Below, piece after piece: positions 10,001-59,353 of a stretch of DNA of 64,000 nucleotides (its first letter is position 1; every line of letters starts with the position of its first letter). The stretch covers positions 9,672,001 through 9,736,000 of the forward strand of contig JANTQA010000032.1 of NCBI GenBank assembly GCA_027625915.1, read 5' to 3'. The translations under genes and the position numbers were made by a program. This DNA is from Anaeramoeba flamelloides. Lineage: Eukaryota; Metamonada; Anaeramoebidae. The notes under the pieces are model-generated. The model was not told the DNA's origin. It saw only the letters and a list, made by a program, of their open reading frames with translations, and made no database searches.

Positions 10001-12822
10001 TCTGACATTTTTTTATTGTTATTTTAATCAATATTTTATTTAATAATTCAAATATAACATTTTATCCAAATCGGTTCATTATTAATGAATTTCCAAAAAA
10101 AAAACATCTAGGTAGGTTTATTTTAGATTGATCTCATTTTTGAATTACAAAATGTTTTGGTTTTCTATTTGAGAGAAAATTAAAGACAAATTACTCATAT
10201 TGTTTGAAAATTTTAGATATTTATGCTTTCAATGATTATGCTATTTTTTATCATTACAATTTCTGTGAATTAATATGATTTATAATATATTATACTAATT
10301 CAGATAAACGGGTTTTTTTAATAATATGCATAAATAGATTAGAAATTAGATCAATCGTTAATTAAACTAGAACCAGTCAATGAATTCTTTTAAAAATAAA
10401 CAACCAAAAAGAAATATTTAATTTTACACAGCCAATTTCTTTAAAAAACAAATATTTATTCACAACTTCAATTATTAAAATATATTTTAGCATTTTAAAC
10501 ATTATCAGAAATTTATCTCAATTGGTTTATGGTTTAATCAATAAATAATATCAAAAGAAATGTTTCTGAAAAACGATATTGGGAATATTGATTAAAAAAA
10601 ATATTTTTTTTTTCCATTAAAGAGTGAGTACTCAAAGTTCGCCTCTTTACATTTAGTTTTTTTTTTTTTAATTAAAGAAATTAAAAGAAAATTTATTAAA
10701 CATTTCTTTTTGTTTCATAAATTAAAAAAAAAAAATGCAGATAGGTTTTCCCAGGTTTAAAAAAGTAGAGTAAAATCAAAGATCTAATTAAATACATTTG
10801 AATTTTGGAAAATGTCATTAAGTTTTTTTTAATTTCTTAAATTAAAAAAAAACTAGAAACTTAACTACACTTCTCGATTCTCTAATTTGAATTAAATATA
10901 TTTTTGAACCAAGCGATAGAGCGAATCGGGCCACTTCTTTTAAGGATCGGATACACTCTGTAAATTGAGAGTGGTTTTTGTTCAAATTCTTATTCATTTT
11001 TATAATTGCCAAAAAGATTCAAATCGGTCAGACGATTTCTTCAAAGAATTAGTGGTTCTAAGAAATGTATAAGCCCAGTTTTTAATAAAAATTACACCTT
11101 TGTGGTTTTTGTAATTTTTGTAACATTTTGAAAAAATTACAAACAATCAAAAATATAGTGATTGGGAAGAATTTGAACCCAGACCTTCATATTGTAAGTT
11201 GGACGCTTTATCACTGGATATTTATCGGTTCTCCACTGATCCATTATTGATTCTTCACTGAGCTATTATTGGCTCTCATAAATTTTTGTTTTTAAATTTT
11301 CATCTTTTTTTTTTTTTTTTTAATTAAAGTTAGTAAAATAACAATAAGGGATAAACGACAAATAATAAATTGAAATTTATTAATTAATTGTTTTTAAAAA
11401 AGTTGAAAATTAAATCTAATAGTTTTGATGTTCCTATAATAATTTTCCCTGAAACCAAACAAAATTATAATCAACACCACAAAAAAAATAATTAAAAGAA
11501 ACAGAAAAGAAAACATATCTTTGATTTATTATATATATATATAAAATTATTGTTAATATTTATTTATTTTTAATATTTATTATTACAAAAAAAGAAATTT
11601 TGGGGGATGGGTAGCACCAAATATTTACTATCTTGGAAGATCTGGTGTAATTAATTTCAATGGTCTAAAAATTGCAGGTTTATCGGGGATTTTTAAAGGA
11701 TATCATTTAAATCTTCCTTATGAAGAAAAATGTCCTTATTCAAACGAAGAAATCCGTAGCATTTTTCACGTCAGATCTTTAGATATTTTTCGGCTTCATT
11801 TAATTCAAAGAAATATTGATATCATGATTACACATGATTGGCCAAGGGGTGTTACTGACCATGGCGATGTAAATAGTTTACTTAAAAAAAAGCCCTTTTT
11901 TCGTAAAGATATTGAAACTACTGGATTAGGGTCTCCTATAAATTGGGAACTTTTAATTAAAAAACAGCCTCGTTATTATTTTTGTGCACATTTACATTGT
12001 AAATTTACAGCATTAATTTTTCATAATAATAACAACAACTTTAATAACAATTATAATAATCAGCAGAAACAGCAAAATTACCAACAACAAAATTATCAAC
12101 AACAAAATTATCAACAGCAAAATTACCAACAGCAAAATTACCAACAGCAAAACTATCAACAACAAAAACAGCAGCAAAATTACAATCAACAAAAATCAAC
12201 ACAAACACAATTTCTAGCTTTAGATAAGCCTCTCCCAGGTAGAAACTTTGTTGAAATAATGGATATTCGTATAAATAAAGATAAAGAACTTGAATTTAAA
12301 GAAAAAAAAATAGCAAACGGCAAATTGTATTATGATCTCGAATGGTTAGCAATTTTAAAAGTAACACAAGAATTGTTTTCAAAAGAAAACCGACTTAAAA
12401 GTGTTCAAAATTTACTTTTCGAAAAAAATAATTTTATAGAAAAAGTAAATAACGAAATGAAAGAGATGAAAAATGATAAACACTATAATGATTTACAAAT
12501 CCCAGAAAATTTCCAACCATCTGCACCGACATTAAAAGAGGAAATCAGCCTTAAAGGACAAAATTTTATTCCAAAGGTATTGGAAAATCAGCAACATTTA
12601 CGCTTTGTGAATTGGCTCGGAATAACCGATCCTTGGGAAGGTTTAGGCGGATCTAATCAAGTAGAAAATTCTGAAGAAATTCGTATTGATTTAAATTCAC
12701 TCGAAAATAATCTTTTGACACAAACAAGCCAACAAATAATCGAAGAAGAAGAAGAAGAAATCCCAATTGTTGCAAAAAATCCAGATGAAATAGATTTAGA
12801 TATGGATTTTGATTTTGATTAA
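7057..12822 (+). CDS. RNA lariat debranching enzyme DBR1
   Basis: DBR1 cuts the 2'-5' branch of excised intron lariats in the nucleus. Three exons join in phase: 7057-7062 (only ATG AAG), 7164-7438 and 11595-12822, giving 502 residues. The introns are 101 bp (GTAATA...CATAG) and 4156 bp (GTTTGT...AAAAG). The metallophosphatase core is intact: Cys8 and His10 in GCVHG, Asp39 in CGDFQ, Asn84-His85 in GGNHEA, His174 in THDWPR, and His226/His228 in CAHLHC. The second junction rebuilds the family segment LQEL..GGWVAPNIYYLG exactly. After a six-copy Asn-Tyr-Gln-Gln-Gln tract (residues 255-284) comes the DBR1 C-terminal domain (FLALDKPLPGRNF, YDLEWLAIL). The tail is acidic. The family identity is near certain; the exact donor of the long intron is inferred from phase. 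Confidence 0.95.
8764..9165. repeat. Cluster of TTTTCCAGAATTC hairpin repeats (family I)
   Basis: Three successive units each read AGGTTTTCCAGAATTC, then GAGTAAAATC or similar, then the mirror GATTTTACTCTATTC and GGAAAACCTAA. They are separated by a shared spacer of the form GAAAGTGACTGTCAAGTGCAT. Each unit is nearly palindromic over about 80 bp. Similar units occur at 50-350, 10740-10860, 49675-50300 and 50450-50580. Confidence 0.65.
9290..9490 (+). repeat. Family J dispersed repeat
   Basis: Shared blocks such as AGAACCTGGAAAATTGGATT, ATCAAAGATCTTTTAGTAACC and AAAAGTGAAAAATTAGCAAA recur at about 1300-1530 in the same orientation and at about 57400-57620 inverted. Divergence is substantial, so the insertions are old. 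The element type is unknown. Confidence 0.5.
9890..10200 (+). repeat. Family N repeat, copy in DBR1 intron
   Basis: The blocks CTGATAGATCTGACATTTTT, AACATTTTATCCAAATCGG and TTCATTATTAATGAATT correspond in order to about 43590-43900 inside the CDC50 long intron. The unit is about 300 bp. I cannot assign a class. Confidence 0.5.
10905..11060 (+). repeat. Possible tRNA-derived SINE relic
   Basis: AAGCGATAGAGCG resembles a tRNA D-arm/A box and TTTGTTCAAATTC resembles a T-arm/B box about 75 bp later. A tail with TTCAAATCGGTCAGACGATTT follows. The cloverleaf cannot be folded convincingly, so this is a relic at best. Confidence 0.3.
11155..11225 (-). pseudogene. Degenerate tRNA-like sequence
   Basis: On the minus strand it reads CCAGTGATAAAGCGTCC (D-arm-like), then CTTACAA, which is like a Val TAC anticodon loop, then AAGGTCTGGGTTCAAATTC (variable loop and B box). 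Anticodon and T stems are poorly paired and no acceptor stem closes. I read it as a decayed tRNA or SINE head rather than a working tRNA. Confidence 0.35.
12076..12165 (+). repeat. Six-copy 15 bp tandem repeat in DBR1
   Basis: Six exact-length units AATTAYCAACARCAA code for Asn-Tyr-Gln-Gln-Gln. Units differ only at silent third positions (and one AAC for AAT), which indicates selection on the protein sequence or slow decay after slippage. The repeat links the catalytic core to the C-terminal domain. Confidence 0.9.
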
Positions 12823-23662: not shown

Positions 23663-25991
23663 CCCAATACAACAAACTTATAAATAAAAAAAAAATGTTT
23701 TGTTATTTTCTCTTTTTTGAAATTCTGTCATTTCAATTATTTAAAAAAAAAAAGTAAAAAATGAAACTTAATTTTTCCAACTCCTATTAAATGGTTGATT
23801 GCTTCGATTGCTACTCTTTTTTTGATCCTAAGTAAAAAAATTTTTATCAAAAAAATTGATATTTTTTTTTGATTTCAAAAAGTCAATTGATAAGATCCAA
23901 AAGCCAAAATAAACCTTTTTATTTGCAATATTTTTTTTTTTGATAAAGTGATCTGATATTTTTAGTAACTTGAATTTTTCACTTTATGAATTTGAATTTT
24001 ACTTCCCAAAAAAAACTCCAAAATCCCAATTTAAACAATTTCCTCCTATATTTTTAATTTGAAAAAGTTTTGATATTTTTTCACTAATTTTTAGCTTATT
24101 TTTTTCTTTCCAGAAAAGAAAAGCTTAACCCAATACAAGAACATTTGGTAAACAATATCGAATATGTTACGTGATGTTGATCACAAAGATATAGCAACAT
24201 TTTTTAAATTTTTTCCAATATTTTTGCTTGAGAAAAATAACTAAAATATTAAAAGAGAAACTGACTAGAAATTGATAATCGAATTAATTATAATCTCACA
24301 CCCCCGTGGTTAAATTATGAGTTTATTAGAAAACAACCACTCTTTAACTACTTTTGTTTTGCTCTTGATAAAAAAAAGTTTTATTGTATAATAATCTTTC
24401 CTTTTATAATTTTTCATAATTTGAGAGTTTTGAATTTCCCTGATTTTATTTTGTTAATCGATTATTTTTTATTAATTTTAGTGTAAAATCACAATAACCA
24501 AACACCCATCTCAAATTAAAAATTAATATCTATATGATTAAATTGATAACAATTTTTGCGAACTAAAAATTTATAAAACAATTTGTTTGAAATTTCATCA
24601 TTTTCTCTATTTATATTAAAATTATCTTATTATTTTGAACTCTACATGTACCAAACACCGCAAATTGATAAATTTGAAATATTTAAACAACATCCGAATT
24701 AGAAAGGTTAATTGTTCGTTGATAATTTATATATTTAATTTGTAAAAAGGGAATGTATTTTTAAAATTTTACCCAATATTTTTAAATGATCAAGAAAAGG
24801 ATTTTTCTTTGGCTTTTTGAAATTTTGGGGGTTTTAGATTTGAATGCCAGCCTACACTTTTTAAAAATTTGTTCTTCCCATCATTTAAAATAATTTTCTG
24901 AATTGGAATTTTCTAAATAATTTTCAAAACTTATTGTAGACTCATTTTTAAGATTTTTGTTTAACCAATAATAAAAGTTGGTCTATCAACTTTTTATCTG
25001 AATGGATCTACAAATCCTATTTTTATTCTCTTAATTTTTCAAAATTGACTTTGTTTCAAAAAATGAACTCTTACTATTTTTTTCAGTAATATTTCAGAAA
25101 CAATCCGACAAAGTGAAACCTTATTTATTTTGTGAAGCGTTCTAATGTCTGAATTGATCTTCTTGAAACTAATCAGAAGTAAAAAATGTTTATAATTTTC
25201 GAAATAAAAAAAGACTCTGTTATTCAATTGAAAAAACTGAATTTGTTTCGTGAATTGAAAATTGTGGGTGTGTTTTTTAATCATACAAATAGAAGTATTG
25301 AATCCAAAGATCTCTTGAAAAATAAATTTTTTTCTTGAAAAAAAATCTTTTTATCAAATCTGGATTTATCTCTAACTTCTATTCTAAATTCACTCACAAA
25401 TTAAACCCATTCACTAATTCGGTTGTACAATTAATTTTAAAGATATACTATCTTACAAAGAATGTGACAAACATTTTATTTCGTCATTCTTTCAAAAAAA
25501 AAAAGGATTTACGTAAAATCACGACGAACACCAAAAAACTCAATTAAATTCATTGAAAATTTAGATGACAAAATCAATTCTATTTCATGATCATTCACAA
25601 AATTAATCGAAATTTTTTTTTTGTAGATTTTTTTTGTGAATTCTTATTTTGGGAATTCGTTTTTGAATAACGATTTTCTAAAAGAATTTCAAATCCTAAA
25701 AATTTTTTCAAATAAAAAAATCAAAAAAAAAAATTTTTCTACTTTAAAAGTTAAAAACACAAAACTAAGAATTTTCATCAAATCCCGGAGACTGGAACCA
25801 ATTTTTTAAAAATTGAAACTTTGTTTCACAAGAATAACAAAAAAAAAAAATCATTTTTTTCTTTTTGTTTTCAAAAATAATTTCAAAACTAATTTCTTGG
25901 ATAACAAAATAACAAAAGTTACGTTAACAAAATCACAAAAAACAAACTTTCGACACAATAACATAAAAAACTATCATCAAAATAAACAATT
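23663..25991. other. AT-rich intergenic DNA
   Basis: No gene, element or repeat could be supported. Short frames at 25.0-26.0 kb lack any recognisable domain. Confidence 0.5.
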
Positions 25992-27995
25992 ATGAGTCAA
26001 ATTTTAGTAGAAAACAGATTTAATTTTTTCGGTGAGGAATTTGGGAACAAAAGTTCATATTTTGGATTTGAACAAAAAACAGAAAAAGCCTTTTTTGGGA
26101 ATTTGATTTCGCAAAAACAAAAAGAGAAACTTGAAGAAAAGTTGTATTTGACAATCAAAAAACTTGACCAAAAACCGGATGTAAGGAACAATTTTGAATT
26201 GGTCAAATCTGGGAAATTGGGAGAGATCAAAGAAATGCTGGAAAAAGAGAAAAACCAAAACAAAGTTGATCAAAAGGGTCACAGCTATCTCTACCACGCG
26301 TGCTCTCGGGGCAGTTTGGAAATCATTGAAACCTTGTTAGGGCTTGAAAGCAATAAAACGATCAACAACAAACAAAATTTTGAAAGCTATCTCAAGGCAA
26401 TTAAAAAAGGAAATTTCCAAGTTGTCAGGCTCTTTCTTCAAAAGGGATTGAGTAGATATCAAAAAACAGGGAAAACCGAGGAGACTGCACTCCACATTGC
26501 ATGTAAATTTGGAAACAAGCAAGTTGTGGAAGAGTTGATCAAACACCAATATCCCGTTTCCCCACTCGATGCTCACCGCAACACGCCGCTTATGGACGCC
26601 TGCAGGAAGGGCAAGACAGGCATTGCTGAATTTCTTCTATCTCAACGGGAAGACTGTAAAATCGATTCTTTGAATAAACGCAACGAAACAGCACTAATTC
26701 TTGCAAGCAAATCAGGGCACCACGAAATTGTCAAACTGTTAATCCAAAAAGGGGCAACTGTCAATTTAAAAACCAAAGGCAACCACAATTGTGCACTCTA
26801 CGAAGGTGTCAAGAACAATCATATCAAAGTTGTTGACGAATTATTAAAAAATGGTGCCTATGTCGATAGCGTAGTCGACGGATGGACAAGCCTATTAATT
26901 GCATCTCAAAATGGCTATTTAGAAATTGCTGAAAAGCTCTTACAATACAAGGCAAACCTGACTTATGTTGAGCCACAGGACGGATTCGACGTATTCTTTT
27001 TAGCAGCCGAAAATGGACACCTTGAGGTACTTGAATACTTACTCCAAACAAGCAAAAATCAAAATCTTTTTGACAGTGTTGCAACCAAAACAAACAACTG
27101 CCAAGAAACACTTTTGCATGTAGCCTCAAATAATGGACACTTGGAAATCGTGAAATTTTTAATTAATAATACACAACCAAATTTGGATGCCTTGGATGAT
27201 TGCGAATTAACCCCCTTAATGTGTGCTGCAGAAAATGATCATGAAGAAATTGTATTATTCCTTCTTCAAAACGGCGCAAAGGTCATTGAAAACGATGACT
27301 TCCAATTGGAATATCTTGAAAACGAAACAATTAAAAAGTTAATTCAAAATTTTAGTCAAATTAATTTTGATTTCAAACAGTTGTTTGACAACCAACAAAA
27401 CTGCGACTATTATATCACCAATAAATATAATGAAAAAATTGGTGTTCATTCTTCCTTTGTCAAGTCCCGCCTTGGTGGTTCCATCGAAAATTATTTAAAA
27501 ATCTTTCAAAACTATGAAAAAAAATCCCTTGATGTGTATTTCTCTTGGATGTATTCTGGTGTATTACCAAATGACGAGAATGGCAATGTTAGTTTAATTG
27601 CAGAAATTAATAAGCAAATCAAAATAAATACTCAAAATAAAACTGGGAAAAACTCTTTATTATCAGATCTTATAACTTTACTCAATGATAACGATTCAAA
27701 AGATTTTAAATTAATAGTAAACGGCAAACCAATTTATGTTCATAAATTTATTCTCATTGCTAGAAGTAACTTATTTTCCTCATTTTTCAAGAACTTCCCA
27801 AAAGAATTATCACAATTAAAAGACCATTCAAACAGTACCTTCCAATCCATCAACATTTTAATTAAATATCTCTACACAGATAACATAGATACACATTTAA
27901 ATAAAAACATCTACAATGAACTTGCAAACGCTTTAGAATATTATCAACTCAATAAAAAATCAATGCTAGATTATTATTTATATAAAAATTATTAG
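25992..27995 (+). CDS. Ankyrin-repeat and BTB-domain protein
   Basis: This single-exon gene encodes 667 residues. About eleven ankyrin repeats run from residue 68 to about 445, with typical units such as TALHIACKFGNKQVVEELIK, LILASKSGHHEIVKLLIQKG and LMCAAENDHEEIVLFLLQNG. A degenerate BTB-like region follows (about 455-530, ending DVYFSWMYSGVLP). A clearer BTB domain covers about 565-655 (DFKLIVNGKPIYVHKFILIA, then LIKYLYTDNI). Proteins of this layout usually act as adaptors: the ankyrins bind a client and the BTB dimerises or recruits a Cullin3 ubiquitin ligase. There is no signal peptide or membrane segment, so it is probably cytosolic or nuclear. The central coding part is richer in G and C than its surroundings. 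The domain calls are strong; client and ligase role are inference. Confidence 0.9.
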   Translation: MSQILVENRFNFFGEEFGNKSSYFGFEQKTEKAFFGNLISQKQKEKLEEKLYLTIKKLDQKPDVRNNFELVKSGKLGEIKEMLEKEKNQNKVDQKGHSYLYHACSRGSLEIIETLLGLESNKTINNKQNFESYLKAIKKGNFQVVRLFLQKGLSRYQKTGKTEETALHIACKFGNKQVVEELIKHQYPVSPLDAHRNTPLMDACRKGKTGIAEFLLSQREDCKIDSLNKRNETALILASKSGHHEIVKLLIQKGATVNLKTKGNHNCALYEGVKNNHIKVVDELLKNGAYVDSVVDGWTSLLIASQNGYLEIAEKLLQYKANLTYVEPQDGFDVFFLAAENGHLEVLEYLLQTSKNQNLFDSVATKTNNCQETLLHVASNNGHLEIVKFLINNTQPNLDALDDCELTPLMCAAENDHEEIVLFLLQNGAKVIENDDFQLEYLENETIKKLIQNFSQINFDFKQLFDNQQNCDYYITNKYNEKIGVHSSFVKSRLGGSIENYLKIFQNYEKKSLDVYFSWMYSGVLPNDENGNVSLIAEINKQIKINTQNKTGKNSLLSDLITLLNDNDSKDFKLIVNGKPIYVHKFILIARSNLFSSFFKNFPKELSQLKDHSNSTFQSINILIKYLYTDNIDTHLNKNIYNELANALEYYQLNKKSMLDYYLYKNY

Positions 27996-45772: not shown

Positions 45773-48700
45773 AAAAGCAAAAAAATTAAGAAAAAGAGAA
45801 AAAAAAATGAAAAACGAAAAAAAAAGTTAAAAAACAAAACAAAAATTTGCAAAATTAGAAAAAATGATTCTGATCTCAAAATTGAAAAATTTAGATTTTG
45901 ATAAAAATTATGAAAACACTCGGCAAAACCACACCCAATAACATTATAATTTGAGTTAACATTTTTGAAAAATAGTTTATATCTGTATATATCCCTTTCA
46001 AACCAAAAACCTGTATTTTTTTAAGATGGCAATTAAAACTGAAAATGGATAAAAAAAAACAAAAAAATATTACTTAAAAGTGCTGATTTCACAACACAAT
46101 TCATGATAAAATTTTATAAAATTGATGATATTCTAATAAAATAGTAACAGATTTTTTTTTTAAACTCAAAATTTTTATTTGAAAAAATTACAAGTATATA
46201 ATTCCTCATAACTACCGATAAGAAAGAGATTAAAACACTGAAAAGTTTAGGATAGAACTGTAGTCACTGATGAAAGATTTTGGGAAATACTTTAGTTATT
46301 AGACAAAGTTTGAAAATTTTTTGATCTTCTCATTTTCAATTCATTCAATTTGGGTAAAATACTTCTTATTTTACTAATAAATTTGACTTTAAAAATGTTA
46401 AAGTTATTTTAGAAGAGTTTACCAATTTTTTTGCTACATTTTTAGTCTCATAAATCCCATAAGATCGCCGCACTCAAGGATTTACTACATTGTAAAATTA
46501 ATTTGGTTCAAGAAACCCAATTATTTGATCAATAGATGACAAAGAAAAAAAGTCCTTCAATTATTCCTTAAAGGTTGGAAATTGAATGAATTCTCTTTCT
46601 TTGTACAAAAAGAATGCCGAAAATCCAACAAAATTTTTGGTTTTGGTTTGAAAAGAAATCAATATCATTTTTAAAAAATAAAAAAACATGTTTGATCTCT
46701 TTTTTTCTTAGGAAAAAGAGAGAAGAGGCTATTTATAGAAGAATTTCAAAATGAGAAAAAAAACAATTACAAATTTAAAAAAATTAGAAAAAAAAAAAAA
46801 CATTTTTTTTTTTGCAACATCAAGTCAAGAATTTTTCGAGGAATACTTCAAAATCATTCACTGTTAAGAACACATAATAGATACGGAGTTTTATGTTTGA
46901 TCGCCTTCGGATCTCTCTTAACAAGCATGAAATAAACGGGGAGATGAGAGGCTCATTGAAAAGTTTGACGATCTAGTTTGTTTCTGTGGGATTTTAAACC
47001 AAGTTTTGTTTTCGATAACTCCATTGGGAGAAAAAGCTCATTTGAAGAACAAGTTCTTCAAATTACCCTTTAAAAATAACAAATTGGTTTTTACTTGTTT
47101 TGGTTTAAATTTGTTTGTTTTGTGTCTTGTTGTGTTGAGTTAGATCCCTAGTTCCAAAAAATAAATAGCATCTCATATTGTTTCATTTATTCAAAAATCA
47201 CCAGTTATAATTCCTCGTTTTGGATCCCCTTCCAGACTCAAAATAATGATATTGTTCTGGTACTAAGATTATACTAATCGTCGTTTTTCGAACTCCTCAA
47301 TATCATCTTATATCACTTCGAACAATATCATATTTCTCGTTCTTCCAGGCCAAGCTCATAACATAACAAAGTGAGTGATTGTTTCCAAATCAAAACCATA
47401 AAGACAGATATTACTCCAGGTGAAAAGAATACTGTAACTCTTTAATTTAACAATTTGAAAATAAAAACAAGTTATGTAATTTATGATTTGGAAATGTTTT
47501 TTTTACTTTAATATTTTTTTTTATTGCAAACTGGGAACTCAGAATACCATTTTATATTTTCTATGAGCTTGTAAATGCAAATCCAATTGAATAAAAACAA
47601 TATCATTGAATTTAAAAATACAGGAATATGTTTTAAAGATATATATAAGGTATTTCCAAAAAAGTGGGGCATTTTTTTTTACATTTCATAAAAAATAATC
47701 TTTTTTAGTGATGATTATAATTAATCAACTATACCAAATTAAGTTTAATATTTATACCGATTGAACCAACCACTTATGTATTTAATTCAAAATATGTTAG
47801 TTGAAATATTCCCAAAAAATGAAAAAAAAAATAGTGTTTTTTTTGGTTAAAGCAATGTACGACCAATTTCAATAAAAAACCGGAAATATGGAAAGGGAAC
47901 AAATAACTTTTTAAACACGAAAACGCAGTTATAGGTTTTTAATTATATTGTAAATTTTGTTGAGATTATACAAGTTATGAAAATGGTTTTTTCGATCAAA
48001 AAGAAAACAATAAACACCAATTTTCACCATAAAAAAATATCCGATAAAATCGAGATCAGAAATTTTAATATATTTTATTTCTGCAATACAATACAAAGGA
48101 ACAAATTGAATTATTATCAAGAATATATAAAAGGTGGTTAATGATTTTATATATTTAAATCCTTTTTTGAAGAATGGGTTACATAAATATATTTTAAAAT
48201 AAATTTGCCCCACTTTCTTGGAAATATCTTATATACATATATATATATATATATATACGTGTGTCTGTGTGAATGCTTACAAGGTTACAAAGAGTTTTAA
48301 AAGTAGACAAATATTCTTACAGAAATGTTGTTTCTTTTCATTTTTATTAATTTTTTTTTTTTCAAAAATAATAATTTTTTTCTTGTTATCTATCCATTCA
48401 TAATAGATACTTATTCTTTGATGACTGAGAGTAAAAATAATGTTTCATTCACAAGCGAAGGTATCTCGTGGAATTCAGATGTGGGAAAAAAATTTAAAAA
48501 TCCAACAGAAACCCTTGATCCAATGGACGAAACAGTCATTCAATCCGATTATACTGACGAGCATTTTATTGTTTGGATGAGGGTCGAATCTCTTCCAAAT
48601 TTCCGTAAATTATATGGGATTATTAAGGATAACGATTTGGAAAAGGGTACATATACCGCACAAATTGAAAATAATTTTAATTCAACAACTTTTCATGGAA

Positions 48701-48879
48701 CAAAATCTCTAGTTTTCTTGACGACAACTTGGACTGGTTCAAGAAATTACTTTATTAGTTTGACATATATGTCTGCTGGTATTTTTTTAATCGTGATCGG
48801 CATTGCTTTTTTAATAAAACATTTGGTTTCTCCTCGAAACTTGGGTGATTTGAAATTAATTGACTGGTATAACGATTAA
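42134..48879 (+). CDS. CDC50/LEM3 flippase beta subunit
   Basis: CDC50 proteins chaperone and activate P4-ATPases that flip phospholipids, at the plasma membrane, Golgi or endosomes. Exons 42134-42374, 42509-42736 and 48407-48879 join in phase to give 313 residues, a usual length for the family. Introns are 134 bp (GTAAGT...AAAAG) and 5670 bp (GTATGC...AATAG). The hallmark N-terminus AFKQQELNSWKPILRPR precedes a membrane segment at about 32-58. The ectodomain carries VYFYYELTNFHQNHRRFLKS, a QLRG motif, several Cys residues and CGLISWNTFND. The last exon supplies GISWNSD, FIVWMRVESLPNFRKLYG and a second membrane segment at about 275-296. Both junctions restore conserved residues: CEITF-E-IKETM and FN-D-TYSL. 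Which ATPase it pairs with cannot be told from the window. Confidence 0.95.
43590..43900 (+). repeat. Family N repeat, copy in CDC50 intron
   Basis: GCTGATAGATCTTGCATTTT, AGAATTTTATCAAAATTGG and TTCATTATTAAAGAATTGAC align in order with 9890-10200 in the DBR1 intron, same orientation. Divergence is high. Confidence 0.5.
45359..45555. mobile_element. MITE family F, copy 1
   Basis: The ends are AAAAATTGTGACTCACC and AGCGAGTCACAATTTTT, inverted repeats of about 15 bp. The element is about 197 bp and AT-rich inside. A close copy lies at 51200-51391. No target duplication could be defined with certainty because the flanks are A/T runs. Confidence 0.7.
47644..48234. mobile_element. Element family G with TATAAG ends
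   Basis: The left end TATAAGGTATTTCCAAAA, followed by AAGTGGGGCA, pairs with the right end over 28 bp with two mismatches. The element is about 590 bp and sits between TATA repeats, so a TA duplication is possible but not provable. A 94-residue minus frame at 47929-48213 has no transposase motif. It ends 172 bp before CDC50 exon 3. Confidence 0.65.
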
Positions 48880-51854: not shown

Positions 51855-54800
51855 TTAATCATCATTTTCACCACCTAGTTTTCCCATTTTGCCTACATTT
51901 TCTTCTCTTTCTTTTAATAGATTCAGTTTTTCATCGTTAAAAACAGTATAATTGTTTTGCAAAATTTGAATTTTATCATCTAATTGCTTGATTTGTCGCA
52001 AAAGGTCCTTTTCTACTGAAACACTTTCTTTAATGCTTTTGATAATTTGTTGATTTAGAGACAACAGATGCAAATCAGAAAAGGTTTGTTTTTTGGTGAA
52101 TTTTCTTAACATTTTTTCTTGTTTTTTAATTTCGGCTTTTGCGGAGAATTTAATTTTTGATTTTGCTTTTTTTTCTTTCATTTTTTGGTATGAAGAATAT
52201 AAGCCAACAAAGCTAATGATTGCGCCCAGGGGCCAAAGAATTACAAAAAGAATATTATTCAATTGCTGCAACGCTAATGTGATTGCGCCGATGATCATAA
52301 TATAGAACCCGATCTGGGCCTTGTCTTCTGCTGCAAACTTGCCATGATCAAATGTTACATCAACTTGGTAGGGCTTCAAATAGATCATTAATAATAGGGC
52401 AACCACAAACAAGGACAAGAGGAAATAGTTTCTTTGGCTGATTCCATCGTCATCATTTGCAAAAAAAAGTGACGATATGGCTAAGAAAAATTTAATAAAG
52501 ATTTCAAAGATTTCAAACCAATATCGATTTGATTTGTAGTTCAAAAAAATCCAACCAAAACGATCGGCCCAAAATTTACTAAAATTGGCCTTTTTTGCTT
52601 TGAGTAGCACAATAATAAAAAACAAGGGGATCCCAACGATATAGATAATAATGGACAAAATATACAGTGTCAAATATTTTTTGTATGTGGTACTCGATGT
52701 CGAAATTGAAGGGTCGATTGATAGGACCTTTTCGTTGGTTTCTGGATCCGTTGTGTAGTTAAACGGTTGGAATGAGATATTTGACATTGGAATGAAGAAA
52801 TATTTTAAAGTCAGGCTAAATAGCCTTGAAAAAAAGATGCCAAATTCCTTTTGTTCTTCTTTCAAACCATGACTTTTGTAATAGCGGTTCAATGCCAAAT
52901 AAACAGCCAATAGGATCGAAATGATGATAAGCGGTGTCATAAATTGCAGTACCCATTTGTCTTTCCAGCTTAATTGCGAATAGCAGTCTGGAGATGCCAG
53001 TACATTGAGATCAAAGACGAAAATGGTTCCCCATTTGCTTATACTGCCGCTGACGGTTTCTGGCCACGACAGCTTTAGGGTGAACAACAGAGATATGATT
53101 TGCACGAATGTTACAACGATTCTAAAAACGGGGAACGGGTCTTCTAAAATCTTTCTTTGCACTTTTTTCTTAAAGACAAATAGTAAGATAATAAAGGCAA
53201 CGATCAAGATGAGCAAATAGAGATATTGCAAATTGGTGGGGCACTTTTGGCAAGATTTGTTTAATTCAAAAAATCCTTCCTTACATTTTTCGCATTGCTT
53301 TTGAGGGTTTCTGCCAGATGCGCATGTGTCGCCACCTAGGCAATATTCTGGATGCAGACACTTCTTGCAGGCTGTTTGCTTGGTCCCATTGTTGAAGGTA
53401 CCCTTTTCACATTTATTACATTGCGGGTTCGCCTCCCCCTCGGCATATGTCCCGCTGCCACAGCTGACATATTTTTGGAAATTACTTGAAGACGTTGTCC
53501 CCTCGGGGCAAGCCATGCAGGACGTTGATGCGATTTTTGGAGAATAGTACCCTAATTCGCAGGTTTTACATTCCCCATCAAGATCGTTTGGATCTAAATA
53601 CGTGCCCTTGCCGCATGGAATGCATACAGATTCCGTAATAGCGCCGACAGTTTCTGACCAAAACCCGTTTTCGCATCGAATGCATGCCTCTATGGATTTG
53701 CTTCCAGTTTTTGGGTTATATGTCAGTACGGGGCAAGGCTCGCAGGCGTCAATGGAATCCCCGCTTGTCTTGTTATTAAATGTCCCCGCGGGGCAGGGGA
53801 TGCACTCGATTCGGTTTTCGTGGGCGTACGTTCCCTCCGTGCATGGTTGGCAAGCCGGTGATCCCGTGTTGGGGGAAATCGTGCCGGGGGGGCATTGGGG
53901 GCAATCTATGGCACCCTCTTCGTCTTGGTAATACCCCCTCGAACACCGCTCGCAGCTTGTTGTCCACTGGTTTGGTTGGTGCGTCCCAACTTCACAATCT
54001 GTGCAATTATGATTTCCTTTCCCCCCCGCATACTGTCCCTCTGGGCAGTGGATACATTTTGTTTGCCCCTGGGTATTCTGATAGCTTCCAGGATAGCACT
54101 TGGTGCACCCCGTGGACCCGTCCGTATCCGAATATGTGCCGCTTTCGCAGATGTCGCATGCACTGCTTCCCACGCCACCGGAATAATACCCGCTGGAGCA
54201 GTCTTCGCAGGCACTCAAGCCCGTTTTATTTCCGTATGTTCCTGGTACACAGCCAAGGCATTCTGACAATCCAAGTTCGCCTGCGTATGTTCCCAGGCCG
54301 CAATCGTGGCATTGCGTTAGCTTTGTGACATTGGCAAATGTGCCCACTGAGCAATTTTGGCACGAGGTTTGTCCTAACCTGGACGTAAACGAACCAAGCG
54401 CACATTCACGGCAAAAGGACTGCCCCTCGAGCTCTTGATAAGTTCCCCGTGGGCATTTTTCACATTCGTTTGCCATCACAGCTTCATCATTAAACTTCCC
54501 AGTTGAACAGGGGAAGCAGCCTTCTCTTGTTGTGTAATTGCCCGTCCCGCATTTCCAATTTAACGAGATCAATTGGATGTCATCCTCGCCATTTTGTTCC
54601 TCTTGATAGGCGTTTTCTGAGGGGTAATTGAACGGGCTACTACCATAGCACATTAAAGTGAAGTTATAAATGTCACCGTTATACAACAAGATCCTGTCGC
54701 AATAGGAAAGAGGATTCGAAATGTTGACCAAAAATTGATCAAATTGCTTATTTAAAACAAAAAGCGCATTATCAACTCCATAGTTGTGATCAACCATGCT

Positions 54801-57800
54801 TTGTGTTGGAAAGAAATTTCTTACCGAGATCATGACTTCGTCATTACTTCCGATGGCGATTGACCTCACTTCGGGAGCGCTTGGATTCTCTTTTTTATAG
54901 ATCCATGTTGAATACAAAATGGTTGTCAGCTTGCTATCCAATTTGAAAACATTCCCAAACAGGCTTGTTTCGAGCCCGGATGGCTTTGTTGGGAGTAGCG
55001 CATCGCCCGTGGTGACGAAATTGGATGCCTCGCTTGATCCAACAACCCACATGTTGCCCTCAGAATCAAACTCCATATCATAGAAATTGGATGTGCCATC
55101 GCCCCCGTAGGCACATGCATAATCGTACGTGAAGTTTGAGAGATGCACTCTCCCCACAAGAATGGATCTTAGATCGTCCAGGGGATCTCTTTTCACCGGG
55201 CAATCGGGACTTTCCCAAAATTCTCCACTTGTATGTTCGATCCAACCACCAAAATATATATATTCGTTATTGACCACAGATATCTTCTCGACGTTTGTGA
55301 CAAGGTTGTCTTGCGAATTTGGCTTTAAGCACGTCACCCTTTCCAAATCTGTTCCCTCATTGTCGACCAACCCAATGAAGGCCACTTTATTCGTATCCTT
55401 GGATAGGCACGAATGCTTTGACGCATTATATCCATTTTGTGGAAAATTTGCATTACTAAACCCGCCAATGACGATCTTGTTATCACCAGGCAAGTACTTC
55501 AATGAGTTGAGGGTGCTATGATGTGCAGAACAAATCAAAGTTGACCAGATTATATCCGTTCCATCGTTTCGCAATTTGGTAATGAACACGGTACCCTGAT
55601 TCGTCTGATCACTACACTCTTGTTCTATCACACCCGAAGTCGTGGGGAAGGGGGTGGTATTGCTACTCTCATGGCCGTCTGTATACCCACCGATAATCAA
55701 ATCACCATTACCATCAAAATCAATCGCCCAGGCTCGATCACAAAGACTAGAGCCTAAAAAAAGGGACCATCTTATCTCCTGCTTGTCTCCACAAAATTTA
55801 AAAACGAGGACATCCTCAATATCTCCGCTGCCTACGAATGGGAATTTACTGATTGTAATCTCAAAATTCGTTGATTTTGATGAACCTATTGTTTTTTTAG
55901 AATTGTTTTTTTTTTTATGTCATTTTCCAAGTGGTAAAGATAGGGTTGCTTTAGTTTTACGACGTAAGCTGCTTTTTAGAATTTTGTTGTACTGATAAAT
56001 TTGATAAATATTAAACAAATTTTTAGTTCCAATTTCCATTTTGAGAAATATTCTATCTTTATCTTTCAGAACATTTGATTAACAAAGAATATTTTGAAAA
56101 TCAATTCATTTTTCAAAATTTTCTTTGGACTTATACCAATAAAGTTTTTTATTCAAAATCTTAAAAAATTACTAAAAAGGGAAATAATAGCAAAAAGTTG
56201 AAAATGTTTGGGTTTATCGGTATTTTTTACCAATAGTTGTGAACGAATTGAATTCCCAAATAATAATAATTATAATATTAAAAACTAAAAGTTTATAGAA
56301 GAATAAACTATTTTATGTATTTTATTCTTTTGTAATGTATCCAAATCTAAAAAAAAGTTTTAATATTATTCGTTACAAAATATCCAAGTTTATTGTTAAT
56401 TTACTAGGATTAAAATTCAATTTTTTTTTTTTTTTTTGAACTTTATGGGGAAATTCCCAATCATTATGTAATTGTTTTTAAACAACCATTTACTAGTGAG
56501 CATCATTTCATTTTATTTCATTTTTATGTGAATAACATTTTGAACTTCACTTTCAATCTCAATATTTTTTTTTATTTTTTTTTTTGTATTCCAAAATGTT
56601 AAGTCATTAAATAGAAATTGGTAATCTCCTTTTTTTTTTTTTTTTTTTTATTTATTTTGTCTTTTCTAAAAAAACAAAATATTTTAATCTGTGATAAAAG
56701 GACGGAATTACCTTAACCAAAATAAAAGTAAATTATGTATAATGCATATTTAGAATTGAAACTGGGTGTGCACACTTAATTCCAGTAAATCCATTCGGAT
56801 TTAATATTTGGAAAGTAGTAAAATATAATTTTTTCGCTCGAAAAATAAGGCATTGAAAAGATTTTTAGATCTTGAGATTTGAAATTCAGATTAATTCAAA
56901 ATAATCAATTTTATTTAAGAAAAACAATAAATTGAAATAAGGATTTGAAATTCAAAAAAGGATCACTCTAAACAATCTTTTTGTTGTTGCCTTTTTGTGG
57001 CATTTATATCTTTTCCATTTACTTGTTGATTATTTTCAAAGCAATTACTCAAATTTATGATGTTTTGTAACTTTAAATTGACATTTTTTTTTGCAAAAAA
57101 AAAAAATTAATTCTCATTTTTGAAACGAATGCTTTTTAACATTTTAAAATATAATATGATCTAAAAGTTAATTAGTAATGATAAAAAAACCCTAATAAAT
57201 GGTAATTTGGAACAAAGGTGCAAAATCAAATCTTTAATTTTTAATTTTTTTCTATGAAAATTTGAAATTTTAAGAACATTCCTGAAACTTTTCAATATGC
57301 AATCAAAAGAGAAAACTTGCGAAAAAAATTGTTTTTGACTGAAAAAATACAAATTCATTCAAAAAACTCAAAATTTAAAAGATCATTTTGAACATATTAT
57401 GATGCTGAAAACTTTTTATAAAAAAAATGATTAAACTTTTGCTAATTTTTCATTTTTTAATATGCCCCACTTATAATAAGCACCATTGACTAATAAGAGA
57501 TCTTTGATCAAAAATTATGTAGACAGATATTTTAAAATTTAATGTGACCAATCCAATTTTTCATTCTATTAAGATTTTTGTTTAATACAATAGGAAAAAA
57601 TCCTATAAAATCTTTTTTCACACTTTTGAGATTATTTTATCATCTTTCAATAATATTTTAAGTTTAGATAAATATCTTTTAAATGAGAAATCAATTATTT
57701 TGAAAGATTAAAAAAATATTTATTGATTAAAATTGAAAAAAAAATACTTATGATTTTGCTCTTTTCTTTTATATCCTGGAAACGGTGGGACACGGAACAT

Positions 57801-59353
57801 TATCATCACGAGTATTTTTTTTCGATATTTCAGTTTTATTATACAAGTATAGCATTTTGAAAAGTATTCAATTATTATTCATTCAGGTTAATATCTAAAA
57901 GTGGAATTAAACTAAAAGTCATTGGTAAAGTGATTTAATTAACATTTTGCCCCATGGAATAAAGTTTATTTATGATATAATAAGCATTACAAAACTTGAA
58001 ATTCTTGAGGCCAGTTATCTTTATTATTGTTGTTAACAGAAGTACTTCGGATTTATAAAATTCACTAGTCCAGAAAAAAAGTTACCTTTTGGGTGTGTAT
58101 AATATTTTAACAAATTAGTTTCATCTATAGTTGTTTGAAAAGGGGTGCAGACGATAAGTTCTTTAAAATGGTGTTTACCAACCTTCTTAAAGCCGGCAAA
58201 TTATATATTTTGAGTAGCCTGGAAAAATTTTATTTTTCCTTTTTTTTTAAAAGAGTCACAACCCAAAATTTTCAATTTTAGTACTACATCTCAGCAAAAC
58301 AATAATAATTTTTTCTGGAAAAAAACAAAAAATATTTACCTATTACAATAACACAACCATCTTCATCTTGAATAGCATTATTGGATTTTTCCATTTTATT
58401 TCCACCAACGTATGTTGCATAATTTGGATCAATAACCAAAGCCTCTTCTTCATTAAAATTATAGTTTTTGTCAATCTGAAAGGTGACAACACCATTCACT
58501 TCATCTAAAATAAAATCACCCTCTAATTGCCTATTGTTTTGGAAGAACACTGGTTTAGACTCTTCAAATATTAGGCTATTGGTTGATTTTGAGTAAAATT
58601 GTAAATTGCCATTGCTTTCGGAGATTGTCATTGTTAATGCCTCATTTTTTGTTTCATATTTCCATTGAATCTGTGACATGTCAGCTGCGCGATCTAAGAC
58701 AAACGAGGACTTTAAATTCCCAGTTTCGTCATTTATATGGAATTCTAAATCAATGTTGCTATAAATATTCTCATATTTGACTCCAGAATAGTTTTCAATG
58801 TCTGTGGCCTTAAATTTTCCCAAATAGTAGTGTGAAACAGACTTCCTTTTGAGAAGAGGTTTTGTCGTCTCAAAATTTGCTCCAATTAACTTCATTTGGA
58901 TTTGATAATCTTCATTAATTCCATAAACGATCGATTCATTTGTAAAAAACCAAATACCTTTTGAGTGCAGATTACAAATATACTTTACATTTTGATCTTC
59001 GTTTTGGCCACTGTTTGGATAAAAAAAAATGGGATACTTTATTTCATTTATTCTGTTTTTGGTTATTTTTTTTTTTCAGTTATTTGAGTGACAAAAAAGT
59101 TTTTAGAATTTTTTAATTCAAATTAGGCTTGGTTTATTTTGAAAAGGAAATTGGATAAGAAGGGTTACTGAGAAACATACTTTTCCGAGACGGGTGGACT
59201 TTTTTGTCCTTTAACGTTTTGGCTTAAAATTGGAAATATCATTTCATGATTTGGTATTGCTTGTTGGTTGTATGTTGATTGAATTGAGAGCTGTACAAAC
59301 ACAAAAATAATTACTACAAAAAACAAACAATGCAATTTCATTTTGATTTTCAA
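51855..59353 (-). CDS. DUF7948/SBBP propeller, Cys-repeat membrane receptor
   Basis: Three minus-strand exons (59353-59181, 59010-58340, 55885-51855) join in phase to give 1624 residues; introns are 170 bp (GTATGT...AACAG) and 2454 bp (GTAAAT...AATAG). Residues about 1-26 are a signal peptide. Residues 27-270 match the DUF7948 type: VKYICNLHSKGIWFF, MKLIGANFETTKPLL, GVKYENIYSNIDLEFHIND, ALVIDPNYATYVGG. SBBP-like propeller repeats follow to about 720 (IDFDGNGDLIIGGYTDG, FDSEGNMWVVGSS). Residues 722-1160 hold about sixteen Cys-rich ephrin-receptor-like (GCC2/GCC3) repeats such as CPRGTYQELEGQSFCREC. Eight or nine membrane segments span 1165-1511, and a charged coiled-coil tail ends the protein. 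It is probably a surface receptor or sensor; ligand and signal are unknown. Exon 3 is much richer in G and C than its surroundings. Confidence 0.9.
57400..57620 (-). repeat. Family J repeat, inverted copy
   Basis: Read on the minus strand, GAAAAATTGGATT, TTTTTGATCAAAGATCTCTT and AATGAAAAATTAGCAAAAG match in order the copies at 9290-9490 and 1300-1530. Confidence 0.45.
57950..58130 (+). repeat. Family K repeat
   Basis: AATAAAGTTTATTTATGATA, ATTACAAAACTTGAAATTCT and CCAGAAAAAAAGTTACCTTT follow the order of a relative at about 8470-8660 in the DBR1 intron. The element class is unknown. Confidence 0.45.

Follow-up and report, generated by a model that had tools for sequence, protein, structure and literature searches.

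The DNA studied here, called the window below, is a stretch of 64,000 nucleotides of the Anaeramoeba flamelloides genome (contig JANTQA010000032.1, positions 9,672,001 to 9,736,000 of the forward strand). Its minus strand carries, from 59341 to 51855, a gene of three exons and two GT-AG introns. We are highly confident that the encoded protein joins a DUF7948 domain, a propeller, a cysteine-rich (Cys) stalk, a multi-spanning membrane module and a coiled coil. The best overall explanation, held tentatively and at a little less than an even balance, is that it belongs to a large paralogous family of surface proteins that would sense ligands, built of a bacterial-type head, a Cys stalk and a TRP-like membrane module. 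The original prediction had read the same architecture in a model of 1624 residues; the architecture stands, while the length becomes 1634 amino acids in the rebuilt three-exon model. The parts of the gene are the following.

59181..59341, minus strand: exon 1, coding for the signal peptide and a linker, residues 1-53 (start codon ATG at 59341, hydrophobic stretch at residues 3-21, donor GT at 59180).
59053..59180, minus strand: intron 1, 128 bp, GT-AG.
58340..59052, minus strand: exon 2, DUF7948 and first propeller motif.
58425..59024, minus strand: DUF7948 domain (PF25778), residues 64-263 (E=7e-27, exon alone).
55886..58339, minus strand: intron 2, 2454 bp, GT-AG, at a position common to 9/9 split copies examined.
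51855..55885, minus strand: exon 3, remaining propeller, Cys repeats, membrane module, coiled coil and stop (open frame 51855-55919, acceptor AG/GTTCATC).
54564..55885, minus strand: SBBP-type propeller motifs 2-7, motif 1 spanning the end of exon 2 (motif positions; SBBP profile above cut-off in 4/10 paralogues).
53235..54563, minus strand: Ephrin_rec_like Cys-rich stalk, residues 733-1175 (PF07699, E=5e-50; 24 CxxC motifs).
52185..53234, minus strand: 8-9 membrane segments, likely a distant TRP-like PF06011 relative (hydropathy; related genome places; PF06011 above cut-off in relatives).
51858..52184, minus strand: putative cytosolic coiled-coil tail (the profile matches coiled coils alone, and weakly).

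Pfam searches identify the two ectodomain modules that flank the propeller. Exon 2 alone gives DUF7948 with 95 bits against a cut-off of 27 (E=7e-27), and the Cys-rich region gives Ephrin_rec_like with 167 bits against a cut-off of 23.1 (E=5e-50, 11 stretches). Both had been anticipated from the letters of the DNA. The original prediction was to fall if neither DUF7948 nor SBBP gave a profile hit; it stands through DUF7948, SBBP hits coming from paralogues only. Residues 733-1175 hold 24 CxxC motifs, the first 15 of which are mostly 17 residues apart, so that the earlier figure of about sixteen repeats fits the regular part of the stalk; the NCD3G profile matches these Cys repeats only. Between the two modules, seven propeller motifs, picked by eye and then located by computation, are found at residues 284, 348, 424, 496, 565, 637 and 693, with a spacing of 56-76 residues. 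The hydropathy profile bears out the predicted signal peptide (hydrophobic residues 3-21) and the predicted 8 or 9 membrane segments, which follow residue 1175, and N-glycosylation motifs are present in the large ectodomain. For the coiled coil, the carboxyl-terminal tail gives weak coiled-coil profile matches to solved structures (best E=0.0065), which fall short of a firm confirmation. The signal peptide, the disulphide-rich ectodomain with its N-glycosylation motifs, the TRP-like module and the tail would be consistent with a surface sensor. An ephrin receptor tyrosine kinase or an adhesion G protein-coupled receptor (GPCR) is ruled out: no kinase family was found at E<=1 in Pfam for any piece of the window protein, and neither a GAIN domain nor a GPCR seven-transmembrane profile was reported for it.

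The fusion of the head to the Cys repeats and the multi-spanning domain, a central claim of the original prediction, is real and is not a splicing artefact. The paralogous locus L031 is one open frame of 1578 codons that aligns by BLAST to all four window pieces (DUF7948 3e-8, propeller 3e-18, Cys repeats 2e-35, membrane module 1e-43). In L029 (1558 codons) and L030 (1546 codons) the DUF, Cys and membrane pieces are likewise matched in one frame, the propeller being seen by eye only. Since these frames are uninterrupted, with all four modules in L031, the modules are joined independently of splicing. Pfam finds DUF7948 (58 bits) and Ephrin_rec_like in the L029 frame, lists Ephrin_rec_like and not DUF7948 at E<=0.001 in the L031 frame, and gives no SBBP match for the L030 propeller. 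A single frame covers DUF7948 together with the beginning of the propeller in L022, L023, L024, L026 and L028. Where the gene is split, intron 2 interrupts a propeller motif at one position in all nine copies (window, L009-L015 and L017); these nine junctions were chosen because the split is visible there, with L016, L018-L021, L025 and L027 outside this set.

Two adjacent genes wrongly joined, one for a secreted DUF7948 protein and the other for a separate stalk-membrane protein, might be suspected from the 2.45-kb AT-rich gap between exons 2 and 3 (22% guanine plus cytosine, GC) and from the jump in GC from 31% to 42%. However, both sides splice in frame within a propeller motif, the intron position is identical in the nine split copies and L029-L031 need no splicing; the shared position and the single-frame paralogues lead us to reject this highly improbable arrangement. 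The bacterial-type domain and the GC jump could also evoke bacterial contamination or a chimeric assembly. That explanation has a practically negligible probability and is rejected, the copies being spread with their introns over many megabase contigs of a 254-Mb genome and the window gene having DBR1, an ATG4-type peptidase and CDC50 as neighbours.

The exon-2 protein has at least 56 matches at a minimum of 54 genome places and the membrane module at least 95 matches at a minimum of 83 places. These counts are lower bounds because only the best candidates were scored (91 of 161 in the membrane-module search). The two modules are strongly associated: of the 54 DUF7948 places, 42 are followed downstream on their own strand by a membrane module at a distance of up to 30 kb, and 37 at up to 10 kb, while the controls give 1/54 upstream on the same strand and 1/54 downstream on the other strand. 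For L019 and L020, DUF7948 copies separated by end branches below 0.1, the nearest membrane module lies ~13 and ~11 kb downstream, suggesting that introns there may be very long. In the close copies L016 and L017, which are possibly decaying, the membrane-module match is interrupted by an in-frame stop, a TAG and a TGA.

The membrane module is likely TRP-like and a distant relative of PF06011, a kinship established through paralogues and not through the window copy. Close relatives L014, L012 and L015 match PF06011 below cut-off (E=1.5e-4 to 6e-3), and L025 combines Ephrin_rec_like and TRP (34.8 bits, cut-off 28.5) in one frame, with DUF7948 (64 bits) in an upstream frame of the same strand. 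PF06011 matches none of 14 control genomes, apparently prokaryotes, and is detected at 37 places across the whole protist genome at E<=1; 13 of these exceed the cut-off, two of them after the addition of adjoining pieces. Most of these places (25/37, and 8/13 of those above cut-off) are on or at most 1.5 kb from membrane-module places found with the window sequence, and the multi-span module is kept across the aligned paralogues (13 rows). The PF06011 matches in relatives, including L025, thus make the module a likely distant relative of the fungal Flc group. The overlooked receptor class that had been proposed takes a sharper form: its membrane part would be this distant PF06011 relative, and the same chassis bears other heads as well.

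Fission yeast Pkd2, which we take to be a member of PF06011, offers a close comparison of overall plan. PMC11277609 gives it a membrane domain of nine helices along with an extracellular domain and a tail in the cytosol, with Ca2+ passage on membrane stretch, and PMC9600462 describes it as a TRP-like channel. The latter also assigns an ML-like ectodomain (PF14558) plus PF06011 to the fungal Flc proteins, and discusses fungal PF06011 proteins as flavin carriers and in Ca2+ homeostasis. The window protein would share the succession of extracellular domain, multi-span module (nine helices in Pkd2, PMC11277609) and cytosolic tail, but has a DUF7948/SBBP-type propeller and a Cys stalk where the fungal proteins have the ML-like ectodomain. 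PF14558 was not reported in the window protein at E<=1. Viral contigs, searched with exact short patterns only, held no relative for two membrane-module queries or the DUF7948 query. Protist Ephrin_rec_like multi-span proteins have Cys repeats directly before several membrane segments; the head of the window protein is different from theirs.

Membrane-module places with no DUF7948 partner number 41, and 11 of them (L112-L114 and L116-L123; a chosen set, mostly long frames, and not random) were read by eye. Four (L113, L114, L117 and L120) have a different repeat head, "GSEFQVN...WxSxGQDGxxxGIxAQxF". An SBBP-type head is seen in another four (L116, L118, L119 and L121), two of which (L118 and L121) also have a diverged DUF7948. 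Beta-helix-like repeats are seen in L112 and L123, and L122 has no clear head. The L113 head matches bacterial plasmid proteins in 33 plasmid records, the best with 38.5% identity over 93% of the length (E=3e-73, a type of score that repeats inflate); neither this head nor that of L114 has a Pfam or NCBIfam name. A single open frame of 3298 codons makes up L112 (G000:C13:13145200-13155100), with the long head of beta-helix-like repeats recognised by eye, Cys repeats and, below threshold, a TRP match.

In a tree built from 21 membrane modules, two other-headed copies have DUF-headed partners: L031 for L113 (support 99/99) and L025 for L112 (100/100). A topology that keeps the 18 rows with DUF/propeller heads in one group is rejected (p-AU 3e-56), and three head changes are needed. 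The position of 3/21 other-headed modules among propeller-headed ones argues that heads have been swapped. The L112-L025 pair is less sure than L113-L031 because the head and the membrane part of L025 are in separate exons, whereas L031 and L113 are single frames. Head labels were assigned by hand, L116 being counted as "DUF" by its propeller only; in L012-L017, L021-L023, L025, L026 and L028 a different exon of the same strand carries the head, wholly or in part.

The head was likely transferred from bacteria, to judge from its distribution. In the DUF7948 alignment no stretch is of sufficient conservation to scan a collection with. A head profile built from 19 protist sequences covers DUF7948 and stops within propeller motif 1; with it the domain is detected in 80/80 bacterial loci, which had been fetched beforehand with a bacterial DUF7948-like query. 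Profile-positive genomes, the centre genome being included in each count, amount to 39/149 in the Planctomycetota phylum (G005), 36/198 in the phylum of the Bacteroidetes record (G003), 21/148 in that of Nitrospira (G006), 3/249 in that of Methylobacter (G001) and 1/146 in that of Iningainema (G002). Expansions occur in bacteria too, as the Planctomycetota-phylum genomes G793 and G813 have 17 and 18 profile matches, single propeller motifs included. The L022 head matches nine plasmid records, the best from Paenibacillus and Priestia (E=2e-24); the Priestia protein carries an annotation for SBBP repeats. In the bacterial proteins the first propeller motif recurs downstream of DUF7948. Bacterial DUF7948-SBBP proteins thus resemble the window protein in the succession of DUF7948 and SBBP-type propeller, but differ from it in the membrane module, for which no match was found in 131 bacterial loci (L032-L111 and L124-L174; stretches of at most ~11 kb, some overlapping). 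A weak match in one stretch is also given by NF047494, the NCBIfam SBBP lipoprotein family named after LipL53 (E=0.0056, 15 bits against a cut-off of 400). This leptospiral family has the SBBP propeller in common with the window protein; unlike it, the family is named a lipoprotein and is without membrane module.

A DUF7948 tree with bacterial homologues had been proposed as a check of the bacterial origin. In the maximum-likelihood tree, built on 242 columns from 22 protist rows and 70 bacterial ones (88/92 rows different, several rows from one genome, no outgroup), the protist rows group in one clade (support 100/100), but outside all bacterial rows and not nested in any bacterial group. The clade is joined by branches of 0.53 and 0.74, and no bacterial group is nearest to it. 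Each locus enters with its best stretch, 140 profile positions or longer, L029, L030 and the diverged L115, L118 and L121 being left out; bacteria are represented by the complete set of 51 rows from L124-L174 and by one in four of the 73 usable rows from L032-L111. The transfer followed by fusion of the original prediction therefore keeps the bacterial affinity of its head, seen with the profile in five phyla, and obtains neither donor nor direction from the tree. The direction from bacteria to eukaryote is drawn from the distribution because the tree holds only protist and bacterial rows and has no outgroup. One old acquisition followed by duplication would be the simplest history.

A mechanism can be proposed as a possibility that remains on the doubtful side. 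The outer head, DUF7948 plus SBBP-type propeller, would bind an extracellular ligand, either a surface glycan or a protein, plausibly of prey or symbiont bacteria. The disulphide-rich Cys stalk would space the head from the membrane and relay force or a conformational change, and the membrane module would respond with an influx of cations (Ca2+) or with a signal through the coiled-coil tail. LipL53 is a leptospiral adhesin for which PMC4388678 lists laminin, collagen IV and fibronectin as ligands; by analogy, this list would fit a binding role for such propellers. We infer the surface location, the ligand binding, the channel activity and the transfer from bacteria to eukaryote.

Other explanations concern the origin of the head and the role of the membrane part. 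DUF7948 might be an old eukaryotic domain, or might have moved from eukaryotes to bacteria, with no transfer into the protist lineage; a tree without outgroup in which the protist rows are not inside one bacterial group agrees with this, as does a diversity of the protist rows about equal to that of the bacterial ones. We consider it improbable, given that DUF7948 is patchy over many bacterial phyla while the 22 protist rows are one clade, and that the downstream propeller motif repeats in bacterial proteins too, among which the Priestia match bears the SBBP annotation. The membrane module could also be a mere anchor or a transporter in an ungated adhesin, whose head would stick the cell to bacteria or surfaces. 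The Flc proteins are named putative flavin carriers, and PF06011 is discussed in terms of flavin carriers too (PMC9600462); an adhesin does exist among the bacterial SBBP proteins (PMC4388678). However, a single-span anchor would suffice for such a protein, and a multi-span module is instead conserved in the 13 aligned rows, so that we regard the ungated adhesin as rather unlikely.

Against the ligand-sensing family with a bacterial-type head and a TRP-like module stand several observations. SBBP (PF06739, cut-off 20.5 bits) has no match in the window protein at E<=1 in Pfam. It is above cut-off in 4/10 paralogous propellers tested (L022, L011, L012 and L024), and the SBBP-like blades of the original prediction hold by these paralogues and by the seven motifs seen by eye. 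The window propeller is thus SBBP-type by kinship and not by profile membership, the link running via the paralogues. PF06011 has no match in the window copy at E<=1 or 0.5, and the window membrane module gives nothing above cut-off in Pfam. In the rest of the genome the PF06011 matches span mostly profile positions 150-420, often less, and the 8-9 window segments are equated with the nine of Pkd2 by hydropathy alone. Searches of the PDB gave no informative match for the head or for the membrane module, the latter having weak coiled-coil/helical matches only. There are 12/54 DUF7948 places that have no membrane-module partner; one of them, L115, does have a diverged membrane module (score 137), its DUF part being weak (E=4e-4, no Pfam match at 0.05). 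The DUF exon of L017 is frame-shifted relative to that of the neighbour copy L009, immediately ahead of the donor site. Head labels on the membrane tree are no more clustered than shuffled ones (all shuffles as low), in a test of low power with 3 other-headed rows. Some genomes in the phylum counts match at the propeller end of the profile only (e.g., G267, G781, G810, G868 and G886), and the bootstrap of the DUF7948 tree is not settled (correlation 0.969). Finally, the membrane profile finds partial matches in 2/198 whole genomes of one bacterial phylum, one at E=1.7e-6, where two stops interrupt the stretch, the other at E=9.7e-4; these are probably chance matches of hydrophobic or coiled stretches.

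The genome comprises 76 contigs, and GC in the window is 25% (75% A+T). Exon 3 reaches 42%, and its Cys stretch 51% with a GC3 of 0.51; the large exons of L012, L014 and L015 are likewise GC-rich (43-45%), whereas the L016 and L017 frames are not (25-37%). Other genes of the window code for the carboxyl-terminal domain of a lariat-debranching enzyme (DBR1, 11557-12822), an ankyrin-BTB protein (25986-27995), an ATG4-type peptidase (C54, 29303-30994) and CDC50 (48307-48879). The ribosomal protein profile uL22 (PF00237) has 21 full matches of near-equal score at dispersed genome places. According to PMC11550330, which also mentions RNA-seq of two Anaeramoeba cultures, Anaeramoeba genomes are A+T-rich and have many laterally acquired genes, and A. 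flamelloides has over 1100 genes for ribosomal proteins; the words SBBP, propeller and ephrin do not appear in its main text.

In open-licence papers, no literature was found on DUF7948, on SBBP and "beta-propeller repeat" together with eukaryotes, or on the pairing of PF07699 with PF06011, and "SBBP repeat" led to Leptospira only. The modules are of known kinds; their combination and the exchange of heads appear to be undescribed in that literature. A more speculative reading, unlikely as a whole, is that of a diversifying system for the recognition of bacteria. One TRP-like chassis with its Cys stalk, present at ~83 places, would carry captured bacterial heads (DUF7948-SBBP propellers, the WxSxxQDG repeat head, perhaps the beta-helix-like heads) that were duplicated and exchanged, and would give an ion signal on sensing bacteria, be they prey or symbionts, by means of surface parts of the bacterial type.

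If the ligand-sensing family is correctly understood, bacterial surface propellers would have been reused by a eukaryote to face the ligand in a TRP-like protein that has tens of copies and heads exchanged on a shared chassis. The recognition of bacteria by phagotrophic or symbiont-bearing protists would then become testable, and PF06011-like proteins would gain a new kind of ectodomain for studying gating by ligand or force.

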